NCBI RefSeq assembly: GCF_001280565.1
Contig: NZ_LGRO01000001.1
Location: 1,736,001-1,800,000 of the forward strand
DNA length: 64,000 bases
DNA from: Sulfobacillus thermosulfidooxidans
GTDB lineage: Bacteria > Bacillota > Sulfobacillia > Sulfobacillales > Sulfobacillaceae
Direction: 5' to 3'
The translations under genes were made by a program, and so were the position numbers. Shown here piece after piece: positions 5,502-10,181 of this stretch; the first letter of the stretch is position 1, and each line of letters begins with the position of its first letter. The notes under the pieces were generated by a model that did not search any database, had not been told where the DNA came from, and worked only from the letters and a program-made list of their open reading frames with translations.

Positions 5502-6059
5502 TCCGCTCCTGATATTATCATCTCGGGTTGTGGATAATTAAATAAGGTTTTTGAGGCTTTCATGACGGGTGGGATTCGCACTCGGGGCCCAGGGCGTTTC
5601 GCGGTCAAGCCATTCCCGACGTAACCAGAAGACCATGCCCGCCACCCACCTCCGGTGTCACTAGTGACAGCGAGAACAGCCCCAGAGATGTGGAATGCCC
5701 ACACCCGAGAAGAATCGTCAAACCAGCTACCGACTTTGGCATGGTGGTCGGAGTACTGTCTCGTCCCAGAAGCCTGCCACCGCACAGACGACACCCCGGG
5801 TAGTGTTGTTACAGGGGGCGCGCCAAATCGTCGATCCCGCATGGATGAGTCAGAAAGAGGATGGCTACCCCTTGGCACGAATACACACAGAGCCCAATTC
5901 CCCTCGAAATGAAAGGAGGCATTTCCTTGTCCAAATTTAGCACAATTCATCGTCGCCAATCGGCGTCGTCGAGTCCGATCACGCCGACCACGGGCATCCT
6001 GACGATTGGAGGTTGTCCCATACGTCGTGGAAATTCGCTAGCGCATCCTTTCGTGAGAT
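5502..6059. other. Gene-free stretch between two transposase relics
   Basis: No frame shows recognisable protein motifs. A short segment near 5560-5620 has a tRNA-like T-loop string, but the stems do not pair. I see no gene here. Confidence 0.5.
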
Positions 6060-6421
6060 TTAACCCATTTCCTCGGTTCGGTCGGGTTTTTGAGAAACGT
6101 GGGCTTTTAAGGCCTGTTGCAACACGGACATCTCACGATATCCCGGGATTCGCGTCAAGGTGTCCCCGATGAACAAGCTGGCCGATGCCAACCAACGTAA
6201 AACTTGTTGCCCGTTGGTCCAGTGCTTGACATTCTGCGCATGGGTGCAGCATGGACTGTTAATCGATTCCATGGCATTTCGTGCCTTGCGCCATAACCCT
6301 TTGGCCTGGTCTGCCATAAACCATGGCTCGCAAGCCTCCGGGACCAGCGATCGATAACTTGTCTAGACTTGCGGGGTCGAACCGCCTTCAACGATACTAG
6401 GGTGCTGTCCTTGTTCACCAC
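6060..6421 (-). pseudogene. Transposase C-terminal relic, family uncertain
   Basis: The frame 6060-6317 reads GLWRKARNAMESIN, HAQNVKHWTNGQQVLRWLAS and LTRIPGYREMSVLQQALKAH. The pattern 'HA.NVK.W..G..VLRW' followed by a 'R(I/V).GYR.L..L..AL' tail is what I associate with C-termini of Mutator/IS256-like or related transposases, in which the last helix packs behind the catalytic Glu. The upstream part is in other frames and broken. The following 6422-6696 holds nothing recognisable. It is one of several dead elements flanking the reverse transcriptase gene. Confidence 0.45.
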
Positions 6422-6696: not shown

Positions 6697-8226
6697 TTAG
6701 GACTGTTTAATCCATTTTATTATGATGTTATCTAAGGTGTCAGGATGCACCGAACGATAAAAAAATCCTCTCTCCTCGGCAGGAAGAGTTTGGGCCGCCA
6801 CTAAAAAAGCTCGTTTCGTCCACGGATCCATACTTGGGAAGTTTTCTTTTTGTTCTCTGATCCAATCCGCGTAGTTGTTCTTCCATGCGGACAATATTAG
6901 CTCTCGTTTGGCAATGGACGAGTCAGCTTTGCGAATCAATTTATCGAAGTGATTTACTTCAACCCTTCTGTTGAAAAGCGAAAGAACAGACAGTTGAAGA
7001 TAGTCATTTTTCTTGATTAATGGGTGATCCAATAACGCTAAAAGTTCCTCTCCAATGGACAGCCAATCTCCTTGATAACCACCTACTGATACAAAATAGT
7101 TGGCTATTTCATTCATGGCTGGAGCCATGGAGTCCATGTGTTTGATGCAATAATCGACGGCTGCCGGGTGGCCAACTTGAGCCAGACGTCTGATGAACCA
7201 CCTGAGTCGAATATAATCTGGCTCACGCGGTTCAAGATATTCACTCAAGATTTTTTCAATACTTGCCTTATCGAACGCTTTTAAGTCATTAGAGGACAAA
7301 TCGCTGACCCGTAATCTCCGATACGGATTGTTGCGAGTATACTTTTTGAAGATCTCGAGCAGATTCTTCTCTAAGTCGTTAATCGGTCTGTCTTCAAGCA
7401 TTTTGGCACAACGTTGCTGAAACTCTGATTGGCTTTCTATCTTAGTTTTTTGCCTTTGTAACAGCAATTTCTGCTGCTTATCAAGAATATTAGCCATTTC
7501 CAGCACCACTTCTTTTGCCTCCATCTCGCTGTTACAAAAGACGATAATATCATCAACGTATCTACAAAAAATGTAGCCCCGCGCAGCAAGGCTGTTGTCA
7601 ACAGGAATCATGGACGCTTCGGCCAGCATATGAGCGGAATGAGGTCCAACGGGAATCCCCCTTGATACTTGGGCAGTGGTACTTTTTATGAGATGCAACA
7701 GCCATCTCACTGCTTGGTTAGGGAACTCACTGTTGATTAATTGGTTCTCGATAACATGGTGGTAGATTTGATTGTAGAAATCGGCAATATCCATTACAAC
7801 GGCATAGGAATGTGACCTGGAATAGCTCAAACATTGTGCCCAAAACGCGTTCCAAGACTGCGAGTCATCATAAAAATTTCCCTTATCATCTGGCTTAAAT
7901 CGGTGGCTAAATACGAATCTTTCAGATATCGACCTTCTCCTGTCTTCAATATTTTGTCCAAACTGATAAATGAGGGCAGCCAAAATCACACTATCCAAAG
8001 GGTCTAACTGCGTTGCTATTCTATAGGACAGGTCATCCTTCGGTACGATAAATCTTCGATGTGGATTAGGATCCAAATTTTCCAGGTCTAATCCCGAAAT
8101 AATGCTGGTAGATTCGGCATATTGCGCCACGATATCCAGTTCCACAGGCTTGGGAAACAAATCAGAATCATTAAAATTTACGAGATGACTGAAAGCCCAA
8201 GTTACAGAATCTGCGTTAAGTTTCAT
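6697..8226 (-). CDS. Reverse transcriptase of the Abi/UG (defence-associated) class
   Basis: A 509-residue protein from ATG 8226 (GGGGGA upstream). The RT palm is visible: fingers segment with PKDDLSYRIATQLDPLDS (62-79), motif A MDIADFY with catalytic Asp146, motif B GIPVGP (190-195) followed by SAHMLAEA, and motif C YVDD (223-226). There is no group II intron maturase or retron-type VTG motif, and no GGDEF or integrase part. Residues about 280-509 form an all-helical, HEAT-like C-terminal region (LRWFIRRLAQVGHPAAVDYC and following), as in abortive-infection and unknown-group RTs. Known relatives protect against phage by making protein-primed or RNA-templated DNA. The gene stands alone among IS relics, is AT-richer by eye than its flanks and was probably acquired. 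Exact DRT subtype is not determinable here. Confidence 0.9.
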   Translation of the reverse strand: MKLNADSVTWAFSHLVNFNDSDLFPKPVELDIVAQYAESTSIISGLDLENLDPNPHRRFIVPKDDLSYRIATQLDPLDSVILAALIYQFGQNIEDRRRSISERFVFSHRFKPDDKGNFYDDSQSWNAFWAQCLSYSRSHSYAVVMDIADFYNQIYHHVIENQLINSEFPNQAVRWLLHLIKSTTAQVSRGIPVGPHSAHMLAEASMIPVDNSLAARGYIFCRYVDDIIVFCNSEMEAKEVVLEMANILDKQQKLLLQRQKTKIESQSEFQQRCAKMLEDRPINDLEKNLLEIFKKYTRNNPYRRLRVSDLSSNDLKAFDKASIEKILSEYLEPREPDYIRLRWFIRRLAQVGHPAAVDYCIKHMDSMAPAMNEIANYFVSVGGYQGDWLSIGEELLALLDHPLIKKNDYLQLSVLSLFNRRVEVNHFDKLIRKADSSIAKRELILSAWKNNYADWIREQKENFPSMDPWTKRAFLVAAQTLPAEERGFFYRSVHPDTLDNIIIKWIKQS

Positions 8227-8512
8227 GTATTCCCCCGTTGATTTCTAGTCCATGTGCATCTTTCACGGGCTAAAATTGTGTTGGGAATGAACTATACTTA
8301 AACGTTTATCACATTTTATCAAATCAATCCAGTGTCCACTGACTGGACGCGGACCCGCCTGTGTGTTATTCCGAGTATTGTGCCGTCTGGCTTTAAACAA
8401 CAGTGGAAAGACAGCAACTAAGATGATCCCCAATCCCAGGAGAACAACCCCCACCAATTTTGTTCATCCTACACCACGGAGCTCCACGATATTTCACTTA
8501 GCGGCAGCTAAG
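8227..8512 (-). other. RT leader region; possible non-coding RNA
   Basis: This stretch lies upstream of the reverse transcriptase on the same strand. It contains a small hairpin (GTCCA-CTGAC-TGGAC, about 8334-8348) and a TAAACGTTTA palindrome (8299-8308). A 64-codon frame with one membrane helix (TTG at 8457 to 8263) is also present, but its start is weak and I do not treat it as a gene. Several defence RTs use an upstream structured RNA as template or cofactor, so this is where one would be. Confidence 0.3.
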
Positions 8513-8665
8513 CTAGCCGATAACGAGCTGATAGTCCTGCATAAAGGGCACAATTCCCGCAAATGTGGTGCGAGCACTGCCTAAGCCGTGCAATAGCACC
8601 AAGACTTCGTCGCTGTGGCCATAAACATCGACCATGACGATTCCCTGTGAGGTGTCAACATGCAT
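8513..8665 (-). pseudogene. Alpha/beta-hydrolase N-terminal fragment
   Basis: Fifty codons from ATG 8665 to TAG 8513, with a GGGGGAAGGG-type ribosome site. It reads VDVYGHSDEVLVLLHGLGSA and then RTTFAGIVPFMQDYQLV, the start of an alpha/beta hydrolase: first strands, then the HG-x-G oxyanion-hole motif (LLHGLGSA), then the nucleophile-elbow helix approach. The Ser-His-Asp triad is missing because the gene stops at residue 50. It is a truncated remnant of an esterase or lipase-like gene. Confidence 0.7.
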
Positions 8666-9059
8666 TTGGCCCTTCCCCCGTTATCTCTCTATCACCTTAA
8701 GAGAAGATCCGTGCCAACATGGCTTGTGTCGATCCGGTCATGCAGATCACGTTCCCCATAACAAATCATGACGCATACCGGATCCCAAGATAGCCATCCC
8801 CTAAATCAGGCTTAAGTGGCTCTGCCTTCTCGAAAGATTTAGCCCAACAAGAGGCTTTGACAAAATTTCCTCATACTTATTATTACCCTACCATAGAAGT
8901 TACCTGTGCGCAGGAAGAGCGAAGAAACGCACAAACATCCCTAGTCTTCTATCCTCTGTCTCGTATCTCGGTCAATGCGGTAAACAACCTCGAACAAGGG
9001 TTGATTGTCTCAATACGATGACCGTGCCTTGGAAAAGATGCATTGTCTGTATTTTTCAC
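8666..9059. other. Gene-free stretch
   Basis: No coding frame with recognisable motifs is seen. It separates the germination operon's 3' end from the hydrolase fragment. Confidence 0.5.
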
Positions 9060-10181
9060 CTAGACATCTGACTGGGAATGCGGGACATGGTGGAGATGCC
9101 GGCGTTTCCGCAGCGTAAGAATCACGACGATACTAACCCAAAGAGTACTAAACCAAAAATTAATGGGTGCCAGAGTATCGAGTAAAAAAGCCTCTAAAGT
9201 CTCGGGATTCAAACTAAGACGCAATACCGCTATGGCGGCGGCCGCAATGATCAACGCGACAACAAATGGGTTGAAACCCCCAGGTCTTCTTCTCCACAGA
9301 TGCTCAATCAAAAGCGACTGGTGCCAGACATGCCAAGCAATAAAACCAATAAAGCTTACGGTCCAAATAATGGCCACACCTAATCCAATTTCGGTTATAA
9401 AGAAGTTCGATAGGTCAATATTCTCAAACACAAACACTATGGGCCAGGTGGCATGGGCTACCCCTTCAGGTCCAAGGGTCACCACCGCGAGTCCATATAA
9501 GAGGAGTAAGAGAAAAATTTGTATCACCACAGTCCATAACGTAGTCGGCATCACTTTCGACGAGACCCGTCCTCGCACCAAACCGACAGCCGTCGCCAGG
9601 GGCAGGATCGGTACCCAAAAATAAGTGCCGGAAATGGTGGCCTCGTACACATTGGCCCATTGAACCGGGACATGCGGGCGTAAGGCGTTGGGAAATTGCA
9701 TATTTTCAAAACCTAATCCCACCGTAATCAACGTTAACAGCGTCAAACCGGGAATCGTTAAGGTAAACAATCGAATCACCGAGATCGGAGGCCGCGTTCC
9801 TAACCAAAAAATATATCCCATCAAAATAACGCCTAATGCCCATGCCCGGTGTCCCGGAATCACGACCGTCGTTAAGACGGTAATATATAAGGCCCCGATG
9901 GCCGCAATATAGGTCATCGTTAATATTCCGGCCATCCCGGCAATCAGGACACTCCAAAATCTCCCCCCCGTCATTTCGAGTTTTTGATAGGCGGTCTTTC
10001 CCGGTGTTAAAGAAGCCCAATAGGCCACACCTCCCAAAATGAAGAGTCCCCACAATCCTGCTAGAATTAACGCTAATATGCCGTTGGACCCAGCGATGAG
10101 ACAAAGACTCCTGGGCCAGACGTACACTCCTCCCGCCACATAGCTTGCAATCAACACGGTCGCATATTCAAAAATACCCAT
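9060..10181 (-). CDS. Spore germination permease, GerB (GerAB/GerKB) family
   Basis: About 373 residues from ATG 10181; the frame is open further upstream but overlaps the preceding gene, so this start (23 bases after its stop) or a nearby GTG/TTG is preferred. Ten hydrophobic segments are spread along the protein (IFEYATVLIASYVAGGVYVW first), as in the APC-superfamily endospore germination permeases that form the germinant-binding membrane subunit. It is third in the gerA-gerC-gerB order. The subunit acts in the spore inner membrane, where binding of amino acids or sugars triggers ion release. The germinant cannot be read from sequence. C-terminal tail is His-rich and basic. Confidence 0.87.
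   Translation of the reverse strand: MGIFEYATVLIASYVAGGVYVWPRSLCLIAGSNGILALILAGLWGLFILGGVAYWASLTPGKTAYQKLEMTGGRFWSVLIAGMAGILTMTYIAAIGALYITVLTTVVIPGHRAWALGVILMGYIFWLGTRPPISVIRLFTLTIPGLTLLTLITVGLGFENMQFPNALRPHVPVQWANVYEATISGTYFWVPILPLATAVGLVRGRVSSKVMPTTLWTVVIQIFLLLLLYGLAVVTLGPEGVAHATWPIVFVFENIDLSNFFITEIGLGVAIIWTVSFIGFIAWHVWHQSLLIEHLWRRRPGGFNPFVVALIIAAAAIAVLRLSLNPETLEAFLLDTLAPINFWFSTLWVSIVVILTLRKRRHLHHVPHSQSDV

Follow-up and report, generated by a model that had tools for sequence, protein, structure and literature searches.

Does the reverse transcriptase (RT) gene at this locus belong to a known kind of antiphage polymerase and, if so, how might its product act? We addressed this in the window, the whole 64,000-nt stretch of Sulfobacillus thermosulfidooxidans DNA analysed here. 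The minus strand from 8226 to 6697 reads as one intact ORF of 509 aa with no internal stops, and translation of the plus strand across 6697-8226 gave many stops and no open frame (Table 1). An earlier note on this DNA had placed the ORF at exactly this position and had credited it with complete RT catalytic motifs (Asp146 and YVDD at 223-226), a reading that held: the motifs are intact and numbered correctly. When 59 homologues were aligned, Asp146, Asp149, Gly190, Gly194, Arg222, Asp225, Asp226 and Lys260 were invariant in all 59, and because of this invariance we regard the motifs as real and their numbering as right. RVT_1 was the sole Pfam domain in the protein (57.8 bits against a cut-off of 29.6), in agreement with the note's statement that maturase features are absent.

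Table 1. Features of the RT locus, with positions in the 64,000-nt window
Feature	Position	Strand	Basis or remark
Drt8-family reverse transcriptase gene	6697..8226	-	509 aa, intact; ATG 8226-8224, stop 6699-6697
RT-like domain (fingers and palm), residues 1-279	7390..8226	-	AF2 model; residues 1-299 align with the RT domains of group II, DGR and DRT enzymes
Motif A catalytic Asp146 (context DIADFY)	7789..7791	-	invariant, 59/59 homologues
Motif B GIPVG, residues 190-194, V/I replacing Gln of PQG	7645..7659	-	V/I in 58/59 homologues
Motif C YVDD, residues 223-226	7549..7560	-	D225 and D226 invariant
C-terminal alpha-solenoid (HEAT/alphaRep-like) domain, residues 280-509	6700..7389	-	AF2 model of domain alone
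Tyr302, candidate protein-priming residue (putative role)	7321..7323	-	conservation across homologues
Tyr377, candidate protein-priming residue (putative role)	7096..7098	-	conservation across homologues
Probable Shine-Dalgarno GGGGGA, 4 nt before ATG	8231..8236	-	sequence
Inserted block with IS debris and the RT, in place of about 1.06 kb in the sister genome	5020..8538	.	comparison with G003/L140
Truncated alpha/beta-hydrolase remnant, first ~50 codons	8513..8665	-	comparison with G003
IS256/mutator-type transposase fragment	6008..6278	.	similarity to Sulfobacillus acidophilus; multicopy in own genome

We then assigned the protein to a family by profile search. The PADLOC Drt8 model (PDLC03783) matched it at 509 bits (E 4e-153) over model positions 1-491 of 493, 340 bits above the runner-up, UG21 (169 bits, full-length), which was followed by Drt4 at 80 bits, with the DRT4/DRT6 range at 70-80 bits. 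All NCBIfam models for Drt2, Drt3, Drt4, Drt5, group II and retron RTs stayed far under their cut-offs, the group II model TIGR04416 reaching 57 of the 300 bits required and the retron model NF038233 reaching 41 of 235. The protein is a member of the DRT8 subtype, which we take to be UG7 in the UG/Abi nomenclature, and belongs to the solitary branch of that family. The earlier note had thought that the subtype might be new, which the full-length Drt8 score (509 versus 169 bits) rules out; the protein is a further example of an already named type. A retron or group II RT is ruled out as well, as there is no maturase domain and no Rfam RNA and the corresponding profiles fall under their cut-offs. 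The note's broader proposal of a UG/Abi-class RT, probably antiphage, was borne out by the Drt8 margin, by a full-length fold match to DRT4, DRT6 and AbiK, and by relatives that lie beside Gabija, IetAS and HerA genes; its placement is outside the group II and retron RTs, and its catalytic motifs are intact in the alignment. Two reviews report the DRT8 subtype as antiphage at the family level and give no mechanism for it (PMC13213688, PMC13314766), and as one of the few named DRT types without a mechanism it lends the present example its interest.

Relatives of the protein are scattered across bacteria. Across the phylum, 398 sampled genomes included seven with a Drt8 match at E <= 1e-30, one of the seven matches being weak. 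A single-sequence genome scan returned nothing, and an alignment-based scan recovered 139 relatives among 84,980 species genomes, distributed over Cyanobacteria, Planctomycetes, Pseudomonadota, Bacteroidota, Acidobacteriota, Verrucomicrobiota, Bacillota, Ignavibacteria and others; an ANME-1 archaeon also carries a relative, at 56% identity. None of 50,697 phage records gave a match and those relatives that occur on viral contigs are remote, most of them belonging to the PDDEXK type described below, so a phage origin was rejected. In a maximum-likelihood tree of 79 RTs, built by a quick method and rooted on a single distant UG RT, the window protein fell within a 49-member clade (SH-aLRT 99) that itself lies among other Drt8-scoring RTs, and its tree neighbours are the ANME-1 protein and three Bacillota proteins. 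Defence genes found beside relatives include complete Gabija genes (GajAB, L025), IetAS (L068) and HerA (L028); as examples rather than an enrichment test, these neighbourhoods are in keeping with defence. An Aminobacter plasmid (L026:5998-9683) encodes a divergent Drt8-like RT and, after it, another RT (7839-9683), next to DUF87 and AbiE genes. In two Paenibacillus loci (L078 and L079), the Drt8 gene sits among short dispersed repeats containing CCATAAGTGACGGCGAAAATT.

Comparison of gene neighbourhoods separated this 49-member clade, in which the RT stands alone, from other branches. No neighbour family recurs among its members, which are surrounded by a mixture of single defence, housekeeping and mobile genes; a conserved partner was rejected on this ground, and no member has an overlapping PDDEXK gene. 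In a separate clade of five RTs (support 100; L103, L105, L109-L111), the downstream gene that overlaps the RT encodes a PDDEXK protein, with an RTasPDDEXK match of 202-232 bits in the two members scanned. The Drt8 family therefore splits into a widespread solitary branch and effector-bearing branches.

To place the protein among RT structures, we modelled it with AlphaFold2 using the 59 homologues (pLDDT 93.3, pTM 0.92), and the best Foldseek matches in the PDB were UG15/DRT4, DRT6, AbiK and Abi-P2. VIA-align extended these matches over nearly the full chain, albeit at rmsd near 5 A: DRT6 over residues 6-506 (Z 19.8, rmsd 4.7, 437 aligned), DRT4 over residues 6-506 (Z 18.7, rmsd 4.9, 437 aligned) and AbiK over residues 10-509 (Z 16.3, rmsd 4.8, 445 aligned). 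Group II and DGR RTs reached marginally better scores (Z about 20-22), with most of the alignment falling in residues 1-299. Predicted on its own, the C-terminal domain (residues 280-509) is an all-helical solenoid (pLDDT 93.4), corresponding to the long helical C-terminal region noted earlier, with artificial alphaRep, HEAT and armadillo proteins as its nearest folds. Solenoid matches are common and by themselves say nothing on function. When this domain was searched by itself, the top-ranked matches did not include the Abi/DRT solenoids; kinship with them is still possible, because solenoids diverge. A BFVD search gave generic RT and RdRp matches only. The modelled fold is that of a thumbless RT with an alpha-solenoid filling the place of the thumb, the class 1 UG/Abi type. 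In the Drt8 of Nostoc KVJ20 (L058:8001-9638), the solenoid is longer than in its close relatives by an in-frame insertion of ~33 aa (~8990-9094).

We next examined motif B and the conserved tyrosines. In 58/59 homologues, V or I takes the place of the Gln that templated RTs have in their PQG motif (P[V/I]G); this Gln is likewise missing from Abi-P2 (IPLG), DRT4/UG15 (VPIG) and DRT6 (LPIG), with PQG kept in DRT2 proteins; the argument from PQG to PVG draws on few structures. Tyr377 is present in 59/59 sequences of the homologue alignment, in 49/49 members of the solo clade, in 9/9 divergent rows and in 14/20 members of the sister clade, and is V, I or L in 5/5 PDDEXK-partnered RTs. Tyr302 is present in 48/49 members of the solo clade and is also conserved in the PDDEXK group. 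On conservation, Tyr377 or Tyr302 could be the residue that primes synthesis, and these are the best candidates. The correlation between loss of Tyr377 and a PDDEXK partner is weak, because the PDDEXK branch has also drifted at other positions of the C-terminus.

Published work on related polymerases bears on the mechanism. Abi polymerases make untemplated DNA primed by their own tyrosine, assemble into trimers or hexamers and combine a thumbless RT with an alpha-helical domain (PMC9508834); class 1 UG systems have the alphaRep domain and untemplated synthesis in common (PMC13174585); and the random ssDNA made by DRT4 is stabilised by a phage DNA-binding protein (summarised in PMC13213688). 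Because of the fold, the state of motif B, and the lack of both a cis ncRNA and a partner, Abi/DRT4-like logic is the best supported, and we consider it probable that the gene encodes a single-gene, class-1-type abortive-infection polymerase making untemplated, protein-primed DNA. Drt8 membership, an intact catalytic centre, the modelled fold, the state of motif B, the lone-gene arrangement and horizontal transfer are shown by the analysis. By analogy with these systems we infer the untemplated synthesis, its priming residue, the oligomer, the trigger and the antiphage effect: the solitary Drt8 RT would form a trimer or hexamer and add dNTPs without a nucleic-acid template, priming synthesis from a residue of its own, most plausibly Tyr377 or Tyr302; a phage protein or phage replication would stabilise or boost the DNA product, and the infected cell would then arrest or die before phage release. 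Going by DRT4, the trigger would be an ORF55-like DNA-binding protein. Neither a cis-encoded ncRNA nor a partner gene would be needed. The product may also be ordered rather than random, as DRT3b illustrates that class-1 RTs can be protein-templated (PMC13174585).

The strongest competing explanation, which we regard as unlikely, is that the DNA serves as a signal or scaffold for a separate effector acting in trans, either a housekeeping protein or one encoded at a distance, with the solo protein forming the sensing and synthesis half. The PDDEXK and nucleosidase effectors of other Drt8 branches suggest that the DNA may act as a signal instead of poisoning the cell directly. In addition to the overlapping PDDEXK gene of the five-member clade, Drt8 RTs of Curvibacter (L094:8001-10784) and Hydrogenophaga (L095:7995-10769) are fused C-terminally to a PNP/MTAN-like nucleosidase, fitting the Cap17(DRT8) entry of a study in which Cap17/PNP effectors are listed with DRT8 (PMC10952713). 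A gene 36 nt after a Drt8-like RT (L085:9600-10595) resembles, below threshold in both cases, nucleoside deoxyribosyltransferase and a family of octameric membrane proteins, and is possibly a further effector type that would point the same way. Against a trans effector stand the 49 solo RTs, which span many phyla without a recurrent neighbour and whose gene moves alone. RTasPDDEXK is also absent beside the window RT and was not found elsewhere in its genome, in a search run without a positive control.

Both organisations occur in Escherichia coli, where PDDEXK-partnered Drt8 DNA is present in 105/5,426 genomes and the solitary type in 4/5,426. In strain H3 the partnered form is flanked by an integrase and a phage polarity suppression gene, an arrangement seen in P4-like satellites; the loci recorded with this placement are L109:7953-10315 and NZ_CP010167.1 (L150). 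In the two records inspected, the solitary form belongs to an integrative element located at tRNA-Sec, and a WYL regulator lies upstream. One of these two (L148:10001-11539) encodes a Drt8 that is 99.4% identical to that of Citrobacter (L050), at a distance of about 8 kb from a retron St85 locus. A solitary E. coli protein is WP_032256885.1 of strain YZ22PE67.

We also weighed whether the polymerase might be templated by an ncRNA, as in DRT2, DRT9 and DRT10, with the RNA evolving fast or encoded elsewhere. Several DRT types do use ncRNAs, but here the evidence makes such an arrangement quite improbable. Among solo-clade pairs with >=70% DNA identity (70-94%), similarity in 14/18 ended <=49 nt upstream of the start and <=1 nt past the stop; in L040 and L044, which belong to different families, a stretch of 93.8% identity begins ~20 nt ahead of the start and breaks off shortly before the stop, with unrelated sequence on both sides. 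The exceptions were three cyanobacterial pairs with shared flanking sequence and the pair L053/L090, in which similarity extends 224 nt upstream and 77 nt downstream; this upstream stretch breaks the otherwise sharp gene boundary and might be read in favour of an RNA. As a positive control we compared two plasmid pairs of DRT2, which carries an ncRNA, at 80-90% identity, and recovered 339 and 441 nt of conserved sequence upstream of the RT, bounded by unrelated DNA. Unlike in DRT2, conservation between the solitary relatives stops at the gene ends and gives no sign of a cis ncRNA. Neither RNA families nor tRNAs were detected across the whole window by Rfam and tRNA scans, and the flanks of the window RT folded no better than shuffled sequence (z -1.0 and +0.9). 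A cis ncRNA was rejected on these three negative results together with the working control, and the lack of PQG in motif B, the C-terminal solenoid and the class 1 identity of the best structural matches argue in the same direction. Collectively, the flank comparisons indicate that the gene moves alone, with no sign of a cis-encoded ncRNA or an obligate partner.

The genomic setting bears on whether the gene is still functional. It is the only copy in its own genome (G000, 3.83 Mb), and 60 related genomes contain no close relative, only weak, unrelated RTs. In the sister genome G003 (locus L140), the same flanking genes enclose an intact 258-aa alpha/beta-hydrolase and the RT is absent. Of this hydrolase the window retains the first ~50 codons, the homologous stretch at 8539-8669 being 80% identical to the intact gene of G003, and the adjoining 3.5-kb block of IS debris and RT stands where the sister has about 1.06 kb. 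Within the genus, the stretch 8230-8538 has no match outside its own genome. The transposase fragment at 6008-6278 is 81% identical to a "transposase mutator type" of Sulfobacillus acidophilus and recurs in many copies in its own genome and in relatives. The G+C content of the RT is 41-44%, against 46-58% for most flanking stretches. These comparisons indicate that the RT gene was acquired horizontally into an IS-scarred site, and the earlier description of an RT alone among dead IS elements fits. A gene that arrived recently and is decaying without present function would suit such debris in place of a broken hydrolase, as well as the promoter scan, in which no consensus sigma-70 promoter stood out (4 found versus 4.1 expected by chance); we nevertheless consider decay very improbable in view of the full-length ORF with no internal stop, the retention of every invariant residue and the good Shine-Dalgarno sequence. 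Elsewhere in the window, at 863-2085, an MFS-type transporter is split over two overlapping frames (863-1573 and 1483-2085) and is probably a frameshifted pseudogene.

A cellular RT outside defence, engaged in repair or mobility as a domesticated group II intron RT might be, is scarcely credible: the RT domain does resemble group II RTs (Z about 22 over residues 1-299), but there is no maturase domain, the full chain matches only Abi/DRT polymerases, and the spread across the phylum is patchy (the 7/398 genomes above) with relatives in defence neighbourhoods.

The preferred reading of an untemplated, protein-primed polymerase can be carried further, although we hold the extension to be doubtful: the solitary Drt8 clade might be a functional type of its own, apart from the PDDEXK-partnered and nucleosidase-fused DRT8s, in the form of a one-gene, RNA-free immune polymerase that primes from Tyr377 of the solenoid, with this tyrosine given up on acquisition of a nuclease partner and the role of the DNA product then passing from toxin to effector trigger. 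With the conserved residues for mutation now named and a solitary copy available in E. coli itself, two questions become directly testable: does DRT8 synthesise protein-primed DNA without a template, and does this DNA act as a poison or as a signal to a nuclease?

Set against known systems, the window protein is closest to DRT8 as defined by PADLOC, matching the profile over its full length with all conserved residues present, and UG21 RTs, second best and also matched full-length, lie far below. It differs from the PDDEXK-partnered branch of DRT8, in which the PDDEXK gene overlaps the RT and Tyr377 is lost, in having no partner and in retaining Tyr377. DRT2, DRT9 and DRT10 share the UG/Abi RT core but carry a cis ncRNA, and the window branch has neither the 339-441 nt of conserved upstream DNA nor the PQG motif B of DRT2. 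DRT4 (UG15) and DRT6 are alike in being single genes that encode a thumbless RT with a C-terminal alpha-solenoid and PIG in motif B, but identity is only about 15% and their profiles reach 70-80 bits compared with 509 for Drt8. AbiK and Abi-P2 share the bilobal RT-helical fold (445 and 397 residues aligned, respectively) and the lone gene, with PLG in motif B of Abi-P2. Their priming tyrosines lie near the N-terminus, at Tyr44 in AbiK and Tyr61 in Abi-P2 (PMC9508834), whereas the most conserved tyrosines of Drt8 outside the RT core, 302 and 377, lie in or at the edge of the solenoid.
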